Positions 17,097-29,044 of a stretch of 29,844 nucleotides of DNA are shown in pieces. The stretch is from positions 1-29,844 of the IMG/VR virus record IMGVR_UViG_3300021197_000474. One strand, written 5' to 3'. The DNA is from a virus. A model generated the notes under the pieces. It was not told the origin of the DNA, searched no databases, and saw nothing but the letters and a program-made list of their open reading frames with translations. The translations under genes and the position numbers were made by a program. Each line of letters begins with the position of its first letter. Positions within the stretch are counted from its first letter, which is position 1.

Positions 17097-18263
17097 TTAC
17101 GCGAGCGTAGTCCAATTTTTGATGTATGTGTGTGTTTTGCTCTGGGTCATTTCCAAGCCGCATTCCGTCAGGTATTCGTGCTTGATTTGGTCAGCGTCAT
17201 TGGTCTGACGATCCCGTAGCAATGTAGTATCACGACCATCAAGGTAACGATACTTGAGGTGTGGGAAGTCAATGATAATCATCGCATCGTCCATGCCAGG
17301 GATTTGGCGGAACTGGGGATGCAAGTGTACCATCAAATCACCCGCGAACGTGTGGTACTGAGAAATTGAAATACCGTAAGTATCGTCAATCACTGTTGGT
17401 TGCCAACGGTTCTTACCGATCTTCTGTAAGTGACCCGCTGTCTTCGCACCCACAAACGCAATCTTCTGCTTCGAACCAAAAGCAAAGATGCTTTCAATCA
17501 AATAGCGGTCGAACTGATCTTCTGTCATCGTTGATGATGCAGAAGCACGGTCGATTACGTTAGTGATGTTGTTTACCAAGCCGCCTGTGTAGCGAGTTGG
17601 TTGCGAGGTAGAGCCGTTTGCTTCGTGACGCTTTCCGAAGAACATGGCACGCTCAATATCCTGCATGTGCAGTTTAAGAGCTTTAGTAGCTAGTTCATCT
17701 TCCTTGTCACCAGTACGCAAGTTAGTTGCTGACAACGTATTTGAGAGGCCATAGGAAGTCCGAAAAATTTGCGTGTAGTTGTAGTCCACGCTTGCATCGA
17801 ACGAGATAGCTGTAGGGCTAGATGCCCCTTCCTCAAAAGCCGAACCAGAGATGAACAAGTTAGCGTCATCTGCGATTTGGTGTGATGTACCACCGATGTT
17901 ACGCTCAACTGTTAGACCAGTTGCCGTAGAATCTGCTGTACAACGCATTACTTCGCCTGTCGCTGCGTTTACAAGCATAGTGCCTTTAACCGCAAACAGG
18001 TTGTCGTTACCCGCATCAACAGTGATAGAAGTTGTTGATGTAGAAGAAACCGCACCGTTGACCGTAAGTTTACGGTCGGGGAGTTCATCTTTGAACAAAC
18101 GAAATTCGGGATCGTCTGTTGCTTCAGATGATGTCATTGATAACAATGCGTTCAGGGGAGCCGAGCCGTTTGGCTCAAGAAGAGTGTATAATTCTCTGTA
18201 GTTTTTAGGGCGGAAGTCACTGTCAAATTGACCCGTTCCGCGCAGTCCTTGAATAGCAGCCAT
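17097..18263 (-). CDS. Major capsid protein (DUF5309/SU10-type, HK97 fold)
   Basis: 388 residues with strong AGGAGG ribosome site. The N-terminus contains FDSDFRPKNYRELYTLLEPNG, followed by a beta-rich segment (residues ~65-135) and the ISGSAFEEGA signature at 138-147, then a helix ATKALKLHMQDIERAMFFGKR. These features agree with the DUF5309 family of phage capsid proteins as I remember it. It sits immediately after the scaffold gene with a 180-bp leader and before a strong terminator, the usual pattern for the most abundant virion protein. There is no sign of an N-terminal delta domain, which fits a separate scaffold protein. Confidence 0.9.
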   Translation of the reverse strand: MAAIQGLRGTGQFDSDFRPKNYRELYTLLEPNGSAPLNALLSMTSSEATDDPEFRLFKDELPDRKLTVNGAVSSTSTTSITVDAGNDNLFAVKGTMLVNAATGEVMRCTADSTATGLTVERNIGGTSHQIADDANLFISGSAFEEGASSPTAISFDASVDYNYTQIFRTSYGLSNTLSATNLRTGDKEDELATKALKLHMQDIERAMFFGKRHEANGSTSQPTRYTGGLVNNITNVIDRASASSTMTEDQFDRYLIESIFAFGSKQKIAFVGAKTAGHLQKIGKNRWQPTVIDDTYGISISQYHTFAGDLMVHLHPQFRQIPGMDDAMIIIDFPHLKYRYLDGRDTTLLRDRQTNDADQIKHEYLTECGLEMTQSKTHTYIKNWTTLA

Positions 18264-22377: not shown

Positions 22378-23970
22378 CTAGACCTCCACGAACGTAACGG
22401 TTGTGAAGACACTCGTGGCATCGTCTTGGTTTTCTAAATACAAATTGTCACCACTATTTAAGACGATACCATTTCGCTCAAATGTGCCGACACCTACGCC
22501 GTTTTCAAGAAGACCTGACTGTGGGATAGAGCTAAAACCAGTAGAGTCATTACTTAGCTTATTGTTGTTAGAGGTGCCTGCGAGCATAAATTTCTGCAAT
22601 GGAACGGTTTTACTATTATCCATAGCAACAAGAACTGCACTCGCATTGCCAGTATGCTCTGCCGCTGTCTTCCAGTTAATCAAGTCTGTAGAGTAAAGAG
22701 CGTCACCCTTAGTCATGCTCGTAAAGCAAACCCAAAGCGATGCGCCAATCCTCTGTGGCTGTGTTGTTTTCTGCGTAAGTTCGTGTGTTGCGGTTTCCTT
22801 TGTCAGAACAGAATAGAAATCTCTTGCAGCGGCTGTACTAAAAACGTCTTCATGGTCAAATGACCATATTCCCTTTCTAGCTGCGTTGTTACCCTGAATG
22901 TTTAAGTAGTACTTGTCGTTATTGGGGTTGTACTTAATCCAACTGGAAGAGTTGCCACTGTCTCCATCCATGTTTAATCGAGCGTGCCAGGTTTCACCTG
23001 ACTGAACGAAGCCAGCTAATCCTTGATTAGTGGTGCTGTCTTTGGCGTTCAGGATTGAAGTCGCACCCGCTGCGTAAGAACCGTTGTTCCTCCATTTCCG
23101 CGAAGATATTAGGCCTATTCGGTATTGGCTACCTTTGCTGTTTGCTGGGGTCACATTGTTATGAAGGCCAAACACAAAGACACCACCGTCAGATTGAAAA
23201 TCTAACGTCAGGCCATCATTTGCGGCGTAGCTGTTCCAATCGCCAGAGCTTGTATGACCATATTGGTAAGTAAAGCTATTAGATGTTGCGTTGCCAGTAG
23301 TCCTATTGACGCTAGAAGTGCCATTGAAGGCGTAAAAGTAACCACCCGTCATATAACCGTTGTCATGGACGCCCATAAAAGCATCCGTCCAAGGGTCGTG
23401 TATCGATGCTCTAGTGTAGTAATTAAGACCTATATTATCAATATAAGTTGTTCCACTGCTAGACCATGATCCTTGTAACCAATTCTGGAAAAAAGATTTA
23501 TCTGCCGCTAAGTCAGTATGAAAACGATAATCGTTGCTATTGACCAATACAGCTCCATACGCAGTCGCTTTGTTGTAAGCCGATGGGTTCTCAAAGAAGT
23601 ATGGCTCATATATTTGATACCTCATACCCTGATAGTCGCCGCTTTGCATATTATACTGCGTGCCGTTAAACGTCATGGCCTGCTTCGCCGCGCCAATACC
23701 AACGCTTAGTATCGTTGTCCCCTGTGCAGTAGTGCTTAACAAGTCAAAGTCACCTGTGTTGTAAGTGATGTTTTGCGCAAGTGTGTTGGAGACTGTTGTA
23801 AAGTTTAGTGGATAATTTCCTTCGCTATCAACAACGATTGAGCATTTTGGGTTCTTAGTGTTGTCGGCGCTAATCGCATTGATCGTAACAACGACAGGTG
23901 AAGCTGTGTTGTTTGTAAAAATCTTCCCGGCTTTGCCCGCCGCGACAGTGTTGCTTGATCTACCAGCCAT
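22378..23970 (-). CDS. Large fibre-cassette structural protein
   Basis: 530 residues with AGGAG ribosome site. N-terminal 35 residues (MAGRSSNTVAAGKAGKIFTN, then VVVTINAIS) and the last 40 (GVGTFERNGIVLNSGDNLYL plus a terminal beta strand) are like the ends of phage baseplate-wedge/fibre connector proteins in marine phages, as I remember them. The middle is rich in Tyr, Trp, Asn, Ser and Gly with LYSTDLINWKT, which resembles a single beta-propeller/BNR-like strand but is not a full Asp-box. No enzymatic site could be assigned. Sits in the fibre cassette between two other appendage genes. Confidence 0.65.
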   Translation of the reverse strand: MAGRSSNTVAAGKAGKIFTNNTASPVVVTINAISADNTKNPKCSIVVDSEGNYPLNFTTVSNTLAQNITYNTGDFDLLSTTAQGTTILSVGIGAAKQAMTFNGTQYNMQSGDYQGMRYQIYEPYFFENPSAYNKATAYGAVLVNSNDYRFHTDLAADKSFFQNWLQGSWSSSGTTYIDNIGLNYYTRASIHDPWTDAFMGVHDNGYMTGGYFYAFNGTSSVNRTTGNATSNSFTYQYGHTSSGDWNSYAANDGLTLDFQSDGGVFVFGLHNNVTPANSKGSQYRIGLISSRKWRNNGSYAAGATSILNAKDSTTNQGLAGFVQSGETWHARLNMDGDSGNSSSWIKYNPNNDKYYLNIQGNNAARKGIWSFDHEDVFSTAAARDFYSVLTKETATHELTQKTTQPQRIGASLWVCFTSMTKGDALYSTDLINWKTAAEHTGNASAVLVAMDNSKTVPLQKFMLAGTSNNNKLSNDSTGFSSIPQSGLLENGVGVGTFERNGIVLNSGDNLYLENQDDATSVFTTVTFVEV

Positions 23971-23980
23971 TTATATTCTC

Positions 23981-25198
23981 CTAATTGTCGCCAAAGTAGA
24001 CCACTCGGCCTGTTGACTGATACTTGTCTGCCGACGCCGATCCAGCATCTCCGAACGCATGTAAAACCATGCCAGAAGGAACCGTGATGGATGTACCATC
24101 ACCAACGTAGCCAATAGCGTAAGTGGCGTGGTTGCCTAGCACTGTGTCGGACTCAAAATAACTGTAGTGCGTGTCTATGGATGTGGCCTCGGAAACGTAA
24201 AGCGTGGCGTCTGCTGTAATGCCTTGATATGTTCCGGCTATTGCTGTCCCGTTGGGAATGATTTCTGTGGTCTTCCACATGTAATCAGTGGCAGTCGCAT
24301 CTGGAACTGCGTAGGCCGCTGCCGTACCGCCCGCACCAGCGCCACTAGATACTCCCGCATAACCGATAAAACCCATGCCAGAATGAGCTTGGCAATATGC
24401 GTAAAGCATCGGTGCGTCTTGCTCTAAAGTTACCTCTGTGTACGCACCAGCCTGACCCGCCGTACCAACCACTGTTATTCCTGTCGTGTACGACGTGCCC
24501 GCTGGTGTTGCGTGTGTGCCGTCAGCAGTTTCAGAAAAGCGTATCTGATGCCCAGAGTTTGATGGGTGAGACTGGTCAAATCGGTAGAAAATGCTCGGCA
24601 GTATATTCGCCCTAGACCTAACGCTCCCGTCTATAGCAAACTTGTTACCGCTCGACGTACTCACAACGGAAACTGCAATAGAAAAGTCTTCCTTTAAAAT
24701 TGCGCCAGATGTGTCAAAAACTGCGTTTACCCACGATGTACCGCTGTAAAGCTTTAATGCGCCAGCTTGTGTGTTAAAGTAAACTGCGCCAGTTTGAACG
24801 CCAGAGGTGCTTGGATCAGAAGCGTGTGCGCCCACGAAGACGGCTTGCACTTCACCGGCGCGTGTCGTCGCTGTTGTGGCGTGAGTGGACGCGGTGTTGG
24901 CATGGCTTAGCGCGGTAGCAACTTGGGTGTTCATGTTGGCTACCAGACTGGATACGCCAGCCATGTCCTGCCAAGGGCCACCTGTGGTGCGGAACTGTAA
25001 GCTCTCTTGCCCAGCCGTAGATACGAACTGAAATTCAAACGCAGTAATGCTGCCATTAGAGTTGAATAGCTTAGCCATCAACTGATCTAAGCGTAAGCCA
25101 CCGCGCTCTGCGTCTTCTAGGTACGTGTCGAGTAAATGCTCGCCAGTGGCGGCACTCCTAAAAGTAAGCTGCTCGGATGGTACTCTAGTCTGAGCCAT
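23981..25198 (-). CDS. Tail fibre protein with cupredoxin-like (copper-site) domain
   Basis: 405 residues. N-terminal anchor (residues ~22-55: LLDTYLEDAERGG, then LMAKLFNSNGS) shares a pattern with the other fibre at 13114-14649. An Ala/Thr-rich coiled region with His repeats (TALSHANTASTHATTATTRA) is followed by GAVYFNTQAG...LYSGTSW, a common fibre motif. Residues ~185-280 form a beta domain with SNSGHQIRFS (H217) and YAYCQAHSGMGF (C269, H272, M275). H...C-x2-H-x2-M is the type-1 copper ligand set of cupredoxins, with the amicyanin C/H/M spacing. C-terminal domain is beta rich. Copper binding is inferred; the fold could have lost metal. Confidence 0.78.
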   Translation of the reverse strand: MAQTRVPSEQLTFRSAATGEHLLDTYLEDAERGGLRLDQLMAKLFNSNGSITAFEFQFVSTAGQESLQFRTTGGPWQDMAGVSSLVANMNTQVATALSHANTASTHATTATTRAGEVQAVFVGAHASDPSTSGVQTGAVYFNTQAGALKLYSGTSWVNAVFDTSGAILKEDFSIAVSVVSTSSGNKFAIDGSVRSRANILPSIFYRFDQSHPSNSGHQIRFSETADGTHATPAGTSYTTGITVVGTAGQAGAYTEVTLEQDAPMLYAYCQAHSGMGFIGYAGVSSGAGAGGTAAAYAVPDATATDYMWKTTEIIPNGTAIAGTYQGITADATLYVSEATSIDTHYSYFESDTVLGNHATYAIGYVGDGTSITVPSGMVLHAFGDAGSASADKYQSTGRVVYFGDN

Positions 25199-25200
25199 TC

Positions 25201-25458
25201 TTATTTATCTCCAAGCTTCTCAGCAATCTGTTCAACCCGACCGCGAGAGAGATTTAGCACCGATTGTATTTTGACTACGTGAGCATTGATCGTGTCGCGG
25301 CCTTGTTGATCCGCATCTCTTAGTTCTGATATTGCAATCTTTGTCGCCAACAAGTCGTCCCTGATTGGAGATAATTCCTCTTTGATCTTTGCGTCGATAT
25401 AATCTCTGACCTTCGGATCTATTGCAGAGGCCAATGCTCTGCTGTCAGCTAACGTCAT
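25201..25458 (-). CDS. Small coiled-coil protein
   Basis: 85 residues, all helical: a Leu/Ile heptad pattern from LSPIRDDLLATKIAISELRD to RVEQIAEKLGDK. Starts inside the last codons of the portal gene with a 4-base ATGA overlap and ends 2 bases before the fibre gene, so it is translationally coupled. No homology recognised. Position beside the portal and fibre suggests a small structural or spanin-like role, but no signal peptide or membrane helix is present, which argues against a spanin or holin. Confidence 0.65.
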   Translation of the reverse strand: MTLADSRALASAIDPKVRDYIDAKIKEELSPIRDDLLATKIAISELRDADQQGRDTINAHVVKIQSVLNLSRGRVEQIAEKLGDK

Positions 25459-27368
25459 TTCTTATCTCCCATCGGGATAAGGTTCCCTTTCTGGACTTCG
25501 TTCTGGATATTCTCTTGGGGCTGTACGGATGCACCGCGCATCTTCTCCATAAGCTGCATCTGCTGCGCAGGAGTTGGGCCTTGAGCCGCCTGCTCCTTGG
25601 AGATTTTAAATTGCTCCAAGTCGGATATGCCCATAGCGCGGATAGCCTCCTCGACTATCTTGCCGCTGTTGTATTCCATGCTTAATCCGGTTTGGTTCAG
25701 CATGCCCAACATGTTCATCCACGTTTCTGCGTTCTTCGTGGGCTCAAGCGGGAGCGTTCCGTCAATCACGAGGTAGTCGATTTCCCCTTGAATGTCGGAT
25801 AGCTTGAAGTCGAGGTAGTTGTCTTGAACCATATCGGCTAAAGAACCCGTCGCATCACCGTCATTCATACGGATTGAGCCTTCGGTTGCGAAGAAATCCT
25901 GTATGTTTGACGTCATCATCCGTACCATTGGACGTATTGATGTTGATGATATGACGCGGCTAAGTACGCCAAGTCGTTGACTGCCCAGTTGGGTAAGCCG
26001 CTGTATTTCTGTAGCTGTTCGTACACCGCCTTCGGCTGTCGGCATTCCTTGCTGGGCATCTGATGCGGCTGATAGGCGCTGCTTTAAGCCCCCCATCGCC
26101 TCTATGTCTCGCCAATGACCCGCAGTTACGTCAGGTATTTGCGATATGAATACGCCTTCGTTGGGTTTGGAGCCTGGCAACGTCCGTACAAGTCCGTGCG
26201 GGTTACGGTCGATCAAGTCTCCGATGGCAACTTGCGTAGGATCTACGAATATTAGGTTGGACAAAGCCGCCTGCACGTTGTCAATGCGGCTGCGGAGCAG
26301 CCACGTAGCTATATCGTGCAGTGGAAGAAGCAGATCGTATAAGGATTGACCGTATGTCTTGTGGCTGTCGTGGTATAGCCCACCAATTACGACAGGGAAT
26401 TGCTTGCCGTATGGGTTTAGCTGGCAGCGTATTACCACGCTCTCGTCTAAGATGGTTACGACCATCCAAAGCTGGTCGATCTGAGGCAGATTAACCTCGT
26501 ATCCCGCAAGGCGCACCCAGCACTCGTCTACTACTCGGCTGTCACCAAGCGTAAATAAGGAGCCTCCGCTTTCTCTGCGGTTTCTGTCGGCTGGGTCGAT
26601 AGATAATCCACGGCCAGCCTCTTTGTGCCAAGTGTGTCCGTCCCACCCGTTATTTGGCGCAGAAATTCTATTGCGCAGCGCTGGGAACTCGCGAAGCTTG
26701 GGGTACAATCCAGATTGGAGGAGAGCATCATACGATGAGTAGTCAGCAAATATGATGTACTGCATGCGCTCCCAGTCGCCCCACTGTACGCGGGGATCAT
26801 GGAAAACCCTTCTCGGATCGACGTTTGTGATGACGTTGGTTCTGTTCTTTTGCGACCATGTGACCTTCGTAGGGGCGTACCCGTAGCGGATACAGTCAAG
26901 AAGATGTTGCGCAATTCGGGCCTCCCCTGCGGTTCTTCGCATTTGCTGATGAAGAAGGCGCTCAAGAATTGCTCCCGACTTGCGAGACTTTCTGTTCAAG
27001 CCCTCTAGCTGGAACATTGGGTTGCGGCCCGTAAGAGCCGCCATGAGATATGTCAGTACCGTGTCGCTGATTGCGCGTGTGTCAGCGATTACAGCTTTCT
27101 CACGGAACTTCGTAGCGTCAGGCTTAACGTAAACATCGTGAGCGCGGTCTGCTTGCTTCCAATGGCTGTAACGCTGCGATACCCTGTCGTATGACATTTG
27201 CATCGCTGACTTCGCGTAACTCACAAGACGTTGCTCTTGCTCGTCTGTTAAGTCGATTGAGATGTCGTCGTATCCCATCAACTTTTCGGCATGCTCAGAC
27301 AAATCGACAACGATACCGTCGTCGGATGGTGTGAACTCTGCGCGATAATTTGCGTTATTAATAGCCAT
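25455..27368 (-). CDS. Portal protein
   Basis: 637 residues. Starts MAINNANYRAEFTPSDD; ribosome site is a weak GAGGG. The central stem-like segment at about 340-376 (YGQSLYDLLLPLHDIATWL, then LSNLIFVDP) and the preceding YGYAPTKVTW and PRRVFHDP segments are typical of portal proteins of short-tailed phages with this terminase type. It ends in a Gln/Met-rich helical tail. Follows the large terminase by 38 bases with the recurrent motif in the gap and overlaps the next gene by 4 bases. Twelve copies would form the packaging vertex and tail attachment. Confidence 0.92.
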   Translation of the reverse strand: MAINNANYRAEFTPSDDGIVVDLSEHAEKLMGYDDISIDLTDEQEQRLVSYAKSAMQMSYDRVSQRYSHWKQADRAHDVYVKPDATKFREKAVIADTRAISDTVLTYLMAALTGRNPMFQLEGLNRKSRKSGAILERLLHQQMRRTAGEARIAQHLLDCIRYGYAPTKVTWSQKNRTNVITNVDPRRVFHDPRVQWGDWERMQYIIFADYSSYDALLQSGLYPKLREFPALRNRISAPNNGWDGHTWHKEAGRGLSIDPADRNRRESGGSLFTLGDSRVVDECWVRLAGYEVNLPQIDQLWMVVTILDESVVIRCQLNPYGKQFPVVIGGLYHDSHKTYGQSLYDLLLPLHDIATWLLRSRIDNVQAALSNLIFVDPTQVAIGDLIDRNPHGLVRTLPGSKPNEGVFISQIPDVTAGHWRDIEAMGGLKQRLSAASDAQQGMPTAEGGVRTATEIQRLTQLGSQRLGVLSRVISSTSIRPMVRMMTSNIQDFFATEGSIRMNDGDATGSLADMVQDNYLDFKLSDIQGEIDYLVIDGTLPLEPTKNAETWMNMLGMLNQTGLSMEYNSGKIVEEAIRAMGISDLEQFKISKEQAAQGPTPAQQMQLMEKMRGASVQPQENIQNEVQKGNLIPMGDKK

Positions 27369-27399: not shown

Positions 27400-27408
27400 G
27401 TCGTCCCT
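27400..27408 (-). promoter_or_regulatory. Recurrent AGGGACGAC element, terminase-portal gap
   Basis: Minus-strand AGGGACGAC overlaps the TAG stop of the large terminase and continues into the 38-base gap before the portal. The 12-mer AGGGACGACTTG is shared with 25351-25362 inside the next coding region. Confidence 0.45.
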
Positions 27409-29044
27409 ACTCACCCCAGTTTCTCCACTCGGTTTTAGATGCGCCGGTGAGCCAAGCAGTTGAGTCAAATTGATTGATTGCCGCTGGCGTAAAGTAGTCG
27501 CCAGAGCTAGGCGTTCTAGCTAGAACATCCAGCCCAATAGAAAGAGCGTCTACTTGGTCGTCATGTGTGCCCGATGGGAAGGTTTGGCACTCTTCGTAGA
27601 AGGTATCTATCCAAGGCGCGTTCTCTGGCAGAAATACGCGACCGCCCTCTATGAGCGGGAGAACTGCGTTGAGGCGTGAAACTTTATCGCCCGATACTTT
27701 ATAGGGGATTACAGATACGCCGCTCTCGCGCTTGAGTTCTTGGATCAGTGATTGGCCCGAAGCTTTGTCTTCGATGTAAATGCCGCGCAATCCCTTGCCG
27801 CGCCACTTATTGTTCAGCATTATCATGCGCCGCTTTAGTTCTGGGAACTCAAACCGTTCGCGGATGACGTCAACTAGGTAAATATCGCCAGTTGTGTCCA
27901 TTCCAAGGACGCACATCACCGAATAATCGGATGTAGTTTTAGCTTTGAAGGCTGTATCGGCGGATATTACGAGGGTTGAGAAGGTTTCGGGCTTTAAATC
28001 AGATGGAAATGTGCGCCACCAATGCGCCTTTATCATGTTTCCGCCCACAATGTAGGGCGTTTGCTGGTATAATGAGGCAAATTCGCGTGGGTTTAGGCGT
28101 TCTCTGCGCTCCAAATCCTCCAAAGAGAAGCGTTCAGGCCACAATGCTTGCTTCTTCGTGCTGTGAATGTAGCGTTTTGCAGGGCTAACCTTCTGTAAAT
28201 CCGTGCCAGACATGTATTCTGGGTCGTCTTTTGGTAGAGATGCACGGCTTTTCTTGTCTGCCGTGCGCTTGGTTTCGATGGCAGGGAAGTTAATATGATG
28301 CCACCGCCCCTCGTTCCAGTCGTCACTCTGCATAAGGCGTCCCGCTAAGTCGTCAGGATGCCAACGAGTTAAGATAACGATCTGAGCTGGGGGCACCCCG
28401 TCTATGTCAGGCTGTAAACGGGTGGAAAGCGCGGAGACATAGTAGTTCCAAACCTTGTTGCGCTGAGTGGCGGATTCCGCGTCCTCGCGTGATTTGAAGG
28501 GGTCATCGAATAAGAGCAGATTTGCGGCCCGCCCAGAGGTGGTTCCGCCGATACCGATGAAGTACGCGGCTCCGCCGCTTGTGGTGCGCCACTGGTCAAC
28601 TGCGCGGCTGTCAGCAGACATCTCAAAGTCTGAGTAGGCTTGCCCTGTGAGGGGGTCGTTCACGAGTTCTCGCACTTGCCGTCCGAAGTCGGTGGCAAGC
28701 TGGGAGTTGTAAGAAGTGGACATCAGGAATCGGCTGGGCTTGCGTGCCATAAAGTAGGATGGGAACAAGACTGAACCGAATGTAGATTTTCCGTGGCGAG
28801 GAGGCATAGTGATTAGCAAATTTCGCACAGGAATTGCAGTTGACTTGTGTCTTTCTGTGGCGGGCATGTTGAATTGGTTGGTGAGGGTGTTCCTTTCTAA
28901 AGCGTCTAGCGCCCTAATCATCGTCTTGTGGAACAGTGGAATTTTCCAAGTGGGGTTATGTAGCTTAACAAAGCCCTCGAAGCTCTCCTCCGCCTTGCGC
29001 AAGGCTAAGAGGTGACGCGCAGCGGCTTGCGGGGTGAGGCTCAT
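27407..29044 (-). CDS. terL: Terminase large subunit
   Basis: 545 residues. ATPase domain: Walker A MPPRHGKST at 80-88, Walker B LLLFDD at 176-181 and the coupling motif LTRWHP at 225-230. Nuclease domain (RNase H-like): acidic residues in ISADTAF (D363), YIEDKASG (E425/D426) and HDDQVDAL (D495, D496, D499). Length and both domains are complete, so it should translocate and cut DNA. Start overlaps the small terminase stop by 4 bases (ATGA), the standard TerS-TerL arrangement. The P-loop is the PPRHGKS form, common in marine and lambdoid-like large terminases. Which packaging strategy it uses (headful or cos) cannot be told from the sequence. Confidence 0.97.
   Translation of the reverse strand: MSLTPQAAARHLLALRKAEESFEGFVKLHNPTWKIPLFHKTMIRALDALERNTLTNQFNMPATERHKSTAIPVRNLLITMPPRHGKSTFGSVLFPSYFMARKPSRFLMSTSYNSQLATDFGRQVRELVNDPLTGQAYSDFEMSADSRAVDQWRTTSGGAAYFIGIGGTTSGRAANLLLFDDPFKSREDAESATQRNKVWNYYVSALSTRLQPDIDGVPPAQIVILTRWHPDDLAGRLMQSDDWNEGRWHHINFPAIETKRTADKKSRASLPKDDPEYMSGTDLQKVSPAKRYIHSTKKQALWPERFSLEDLERRERLNPREFASLYQQTPYIVGGNMIKAHWWRTFPSDLKPETFSTLVISADTAFKAKTTSDYSVMCVLGMDTTGDIYLVDVIRERFEFPELKRRMIMLNNKWRGKGLRGIYIEDKASGQSLIQELKRESGVSVIPYKVSGDKVSRLNAVLPLIEGGRVFLPENAPWIDTFYEECQTFPSGTHDDQVDALSIGLDVLARTPSSGDYFTPAAINQFDSTAWLTGASKTEWRNWGE

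Follow-up and report, generated by a model that had tools for sequence, protein, structure and literature searches.

A cupredoxin-like domain with a type-1-like ligand set in tail-fibre-type proteins of marine phages

Known blue copper domains carry electrons or form parts of enzymes. The small blue copper proteins (amicyanin, pseudoazurin, plastocyanin, rusticyanin, auracyanin and halocyanin; PF00127/PF13473; TIGR02657, TIGR03095, TIGR03102) bind their metal with a His...Cys-x2-His-xn-Met set. A phage-encoded cupredoxin is also on record: plastocyanin (petE) is one of the auxiliary metabolic genes of cyanophages. Some phage fibres and spikes are likewise known to contain metal, for example T4 gp37 with its iron-binding HxH motifs and the P2-type spikes, and they are the basis of the 'Ferrojan horse' idea. 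The domain described here resembles each of these systems in part. It is like the small blue copper proteins in its predicted fold, and its ligand set is in register with theirs; the two residues that separate the second His from the Met are the spacing of amicyanin. In contrast to these proteins, it has no export signal, is embedded in a virion fibre protein and scores below every curated cut-off of their families; the domain's own family has Pro or Gln after the upstream His where the small blue copper proteins have Asn. His-Pro after the upstream ligand recalls the multicopper oxidases. Like petE it is a cupredoxin-type domain encoded by a phage, but petE is a host-like soluble electron carrier whereas this domain is part of a structural protein. 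With T4 gp37 and the P2-type spikes it shares a (putative) metal on a distal virion protein; these, however, hold iron in trimeric HxH sites, have no cupredoxin fold and use neither Cys nor Met as ligands.

The domain lies in a 29,844-nucleotide viral stretch from IMG/VR (the window, i.e. the whole piece of DNA that was analyzed), in a gene for a 405-aa tail-fibre-type protein (23981..25198, minus strand). The genes there follow the order terminase large subunit (27407..29044, minus strand), portal protein (25455..27368, minus strand; SU10_portal, PF23899), an 85-aa ORF (25201..25458, minus strand) and the fibre protein, with the major capsid gene (17097-18263) further on. Among isolates, Roseobacter phage CRP-810 (PMC11288001) was the nearest one found. 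It has the same order of terminase, portal, small ORF and 'tail fiber' (gp57); the terminases of the two phages are 59% identical, and the small ORF of CRP-810, at the equivalent place, encodes 90 aa. Residues 1-70 of the window protein (24989..25198, minus strand) form an N-terminal anchor region common to gp57 (53% identity, E 4e-18). The rest of the two proteins differs: the 1253 residues of gp57 contain no significant match to the cupredoxin-like domain. Because the N-terminus and the gene order are shared with gp57 while the domain is not, the window protein fills the tail-fibre slot of a CRP-810-related phage, and the domain is a swapped distal module that varies from one related phage to another. 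Relatives in IMG/VR that match over the whole protein retain the domain with every ligand. A 530-aa protein encoded directly downstream of the fibre gene (22378-23970, minus strand) has no Pfam or PHROG match; it may be a second fibre or spike.

The cupredoxin-like domain occupies approximately residues 171-285 (24344..24688, minus strand), as delimited by AlphaFold, fold searches, HMM-HMM comparison and family scans. The C-terminal region that follows it (residues 286-405; 23984..24343, minus strand) is conserved in four close relatives and matched no family. A preliminary description, made from the DNA letters, had assigned four copper ligands to the protein, and all four residues are present in the translation: His217 (24548..24550), the predicted upstream ligand; Cys269 (24392..24394) and His272 (24383..24385), two further predicted ligands; and Met275 (24374..24376), the proposed axial ligand that completes Cys-x2-His-x2-Met, all on the minus strand. 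The interval 24374-24550 given there runs exactly from the Met275 codon to the His217 codon. The first three assignments rest on the HMM-HMM register, the sequence and the family scan, that of Met275 on the sequence and the family scan. From His217 to Cys269 the distance is 52 positions, i.e. 51 residues lie between them. CxxHxxM arises in 0.055% of shuffled versions of the protein, and C-x2-H-x(1-5)-M is absent from all other structural genes of the window. The four-residue pattern lies far beyond chance, since homologues conserve all four residues. Cys269 is the sole cysteine of the protein. A single Cys per protein and per domain, with a His nearby in an adhesin-like protein, could also suggest a reactive nucleophile of thioester- or transfer-type adhesin chemistry rather than a metal ligand. 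We consider this very improbable; the residues fall in register with the copper ligands of known cupredoxins, and this register includes the upstream His and the Met, which one would not expect of a catalytic dyad.

Next to the sequence we considered the predicted fold. An alignment of 38 sequences (window and fetched loci) gave an AlphaFold model of the domain with a pLDDT of 85 and a pTM of 0.79. In the model the upstream His (model residue 49) stands directly before strand 51-54, Cys101 closes strand 97-101, and the loop that precedes strand 109-113 contains His104 and Met107. The ligands of blue copper proteins occupy equivalent places in the strand order. Foldseek against the PDB placed rusticyanin and pseudoazurin at the top, followed closely by laccase and plastocyanin; the E-values were modest (0.007-0.02), and antibody domains occurred among the weaker matches. 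The best matches in VIA-align were to type-1 copper domains of larger enzymes, i.e. the N-terminal region of Hyphomicrobium nitrite reductase (Z 8.4) and laccase (Z 7.2); unlike these enzymes, the fibre domain is without type-2 or trinuclear copper ligands and without enzyme context. Rusticyanin, the Nitrosopumilus purple cupredoxin, auracyanin A, nitrosocyanin and plastocyanin followed with Z of about 6-7. These E-values and Z-scores are modest by themselves, and it is only jointly with the sequence evidence that they settle the cupredoxin fold. Taken with the HMM-HMM comparison, AlphaFold, Foldseek and VIA-align predict that the domain is a Greek-key beta-sandwich of cupredoxin type whose ligands, by strand order, fall in the canonical positions; structure prediction and a search of cupredoxin folds were the check that had been proposed for the site, and their outcome agrees with it. 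As a separate observation, some small giant-virus proteins labelled 'beta-sandwich' in BFVD match the domain model with a TM of about 0.65-0.68 (A0A481Z6J5 and A0A481Z7Q7 from Pithovirus, A0A481YVH3 from Marseillevirus).

Against an alignment of 51 PF00127-type (plastocyanin-type) sequences the HMM of the domain family reached a probability of 94.8, an E-value of 5e-8 and a score of 42.6 over 76 columns. None of sixty column-shuffled families exceeded 16.1, and reversing the family gave 15.2. With the ligand loop masked the score was 22.2, and with complete-ligand copies only it was 47.5. The alignment pairs the upstream His with His, the Cys with Cys and the second His with His; the loop to the Met is shorter than in plastocyanin, and the Met is matched by position and not by an aligned column. 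His, Cys, His and Met thus stand in canonical order and register. An Ig-like control (Big_2; small, n=3 sequences) scored 13.7.

The divergent cyanophage members of the family are closer to the curated models. Residues 752-829 of PSSM2_298 from P-SSM2 match the family HMM (A3) at E 9e-7. The same domain matches the rusticyanin (2e-4) and amicyanin (3e-4) models and, slightly below the curated thresholds, PF13473 (3e-4) and PF00127 (20.9 bits against a cut-off of 21.2); in the PDB it matches Cupredoxin 1 (6e-4) and then auracyanin A, rusticyanins, pseudoazurin and amicyanin. Such members seem to bridge the domain family to the known cupredoxins. The window domain itself had no match in a Pfam search, where the cut-offs of PF00127 and PF13473 were not reached. 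None of the NCBIfam copper models matches the window protein; one relative reaches the amicyanin model at 21.3 bits against a cut-off of 110.2. A direct phmmer search of the PDB with the window domain returned kinesin matches only, which we took as chance. Overall the domain looks like a genuine cupredoxin, as judged from models and sequence comparison.

The distribution of the ligands was scanned in all fetched loci (n=437 distinct copies). The full set of upstream His, CxxH and Met is present in 368 copies, a fraction that is biased upwards by the fact that the loci were partly found with ligand-bearing peptides. Sixty copies have neither CxxH nor, at its column, the upstream His, and nine have the upstream His only. 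This bias bears less on the lack of partial sets: CxxH occurs without the upstream His in 0 of the 437 copies and without the Met likewise in 0. At 70% non-redundancy 76 copies are complete, 27 have neither motif and six have the His only; the H-x2-M spacing is found in 73 of the 76 complete ones. All 40 distinct copies on cellular-genome contigs are complete. The alignment of homologues thus bears out that the four ligands do not vary freely; they appear to be kept or lost as a set, in an all-or-none manner. Parsimony requires at least six changes of the upstream His and at least nine of CxxH; on the weakly resolved tree, supported branches provide a single independent pair. Since many ligand-less copies fall into a single cyanophage baseplate clade, independence is overstated by the Fisher value of 4e-20.

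The ligand-less copies are clearly homologous to the complete ones (hhalign 99.9%), so the ligands do not seem to be needed for the fold. This finding, together with the antibody domains among the weaker Foldseek matches, could be taken to mean that the domain binds no metal and is an Ig-like adhesive beta-sandwich of cupredoxin descent, in which His, Cys, His and Met are kept for packing. However, the fold survives without these residues and yet they are kept or lost together, and the Ig-like control, albeit small, had no HMM-HMM similarity to the family. Hence we regard a domain without metal as improbable.

The explanation that we favour, with somewhat better than even confidence, is that residues ~171-285 form a cupredoxin-fold domain with an intact type-1-like site, and that it serves as an exchangeable fibre module which is loaded with copper and stabilized by the metal. 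Computation supports the fold and the register of the ligands, their all-or-none retention, the modularity and the setting in a fibre. Copper is the metal favoured by a His/Cys/His/Met ligand set. The apo domain would fold in the cytoplasm of the host and would acquire copper either at the host envelope or when the cell lyses or thereafter. Once bound, the metal would lock the His loop to the Cys-His-Met loop, and this lock may provide a rigid and stable surface that touches the host cell or a further protein of the virion; the ligand-less copies would be the same scaffold minus the metal lock. What speaks against copper loading is that the cytoplasm, in which virion proteins fold, contains little free copper. 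The same fold and site might instead form a purely structural clamp around Zn(II) or a different soft metal that is acquired in the host cytoplasm. A protein that folds there meets zinc first, blue copper sites can bind zinc when they are produced in bacteria, and the all-or-none pattern of the ligands suits any metal. Nevertheless, every copy with CxxH also has the Met; thioether ligation is atypical for zinc, and the closest solved relatives are copper proteins. We favour copper over zinc because the Met is invariable, and consider the zinc alternative unlikely. The preliminary description of a type-1 cupredoxin ligand set in the fibre protein stands with respect to the set, the predicted fold and the conservation; the occupancy by copper is a prediction, and the metal sensing and the binding to host redox proteins that it suggested are unsupported.

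A search by tblastn of 50,697 GenBank phage records found the domain in 130 records with the window query and in 178 with the S-B68 query. The names of the matched records refer to phages of Synechococcus, Prochlorococcus, Pelagibacter and Methylophilales, with a small number of environmental phages in addition. S-TIM5, P-SSM2 and Pelagibacter phage HTVC028P are among the isolates that carry the complete ligand set. Among GenBank phages the domain thus appears to be confined to phages of marine picoplankton. In IMG/VR one query confirmed at least 595 stretches and three others 344, 536 and 267, with possible overlap among the four; the total is at least about 600 loci with the domain. The preliminary description had mentioned YYC..HSGMG sequences in other marine phage fibres, and the GenBank and IMG/VR searches confirm this. 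The carriers are annotated as tail fibre, virion structural protein, gp9 baseplate-tail fibre connector or baseplate wedge subunit, and PHROGs labels such proteins as tail fibre or unknown.

T4 gp9 joins the long fibres to the baseplate. In several cyanophages the T4-like gp9 has a complete four-ligand domain at its C-terminal end (L154:9640-10866, L161:11083-12306, L163:8639-9865, L167:9598-10842). The gene after gp9 ('baseplate wedge subunit', gp10-like; L154:10873-15033 and the equivalents in L161, L163 and L167) holds one complete and one ligand-less copy. A stand-alone ligand-less copy is found in Cyanophage PSS2 gp080, a 112-aa 'baseplate wedge subunit' (L155:11980-12318). In cellular genomes, SAR92, SAR86 and marine group II archaea have the domain on lipoprotein-like proteins, mostly at the C-terminus; collagen-like or PEBP-like regions occur in some of these proteins. 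Three proteins of marine group II archaea (L134:5208-6326, L133:1698-2960, L138:5025-6302) combine collagen-like repeats with a terminal domain that has complete ligands.

The location on tail fibres and on the cyanophage connector gp9, and the similar domains on lipoprotein-like proteins of marine bacteria and archaea, could point to an active role of copper: the domain might dock on copper-uptake or redox proteins of the host, or its redox state might gate binding or trigger infection. Such roles are possible but unsupported. There is neither a partner nor a coupling to metal genes to point to, and ligand-less copies persist within the same baseplate proteins, so that we assign this alternative a low probability. 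The same caution applies to the broader idea of an ocean-wide class of virion metalloproteins, in which phages of the dominant marine picoplankton would have copper-loaded cupredoxin modules on their tail fibres and baseplate connectors, and these modules would act through copper or redox state in receptor binding or as an infection trigger; this we think doubtful.

The fold and the site of the favoured metal-stabilized module are of a known kind; what appears to be new is that they are used on the fibres of virions, in phages of major groups of marine picoplankton. The open-licence literature that was searched yielded no title or abstract on a cupredoxin-type domain on phage fibres; most subscription papers lie outside this scope, and an earlier report is possible. 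The annotation libraries used (Pfam, NCBIfam, PHROGs) do not name the domain. A complete type-1 ligand set in hundreds of marine phage fibre and baseplate proteins suggests that metal-dependent virion surfaces may be common in ocean viruses. It raises the questions of whether marine virions carry stoichiometric copper and whether infection depends on copper; if so, viruses would join the particulate copper inventory of seawater and metal-mediated host recognition.

Some of the matches on single-cell contigs of Pelagibacteraceae and Prochlorococcus were left out, since a fibre-like N-terminus and giant ORFs marked them as probable phage or prophage DNA. One contig filed as Prochlorococcus (G008:C3) contains four copies of the domain in giant ORFs together with a PF00127 plastocyanin-type gene (around 20249, 45305, 110907, 180813 and 185028); on account of these four copies and the plastocyanin-type gene it is probably a cyanophage genome.
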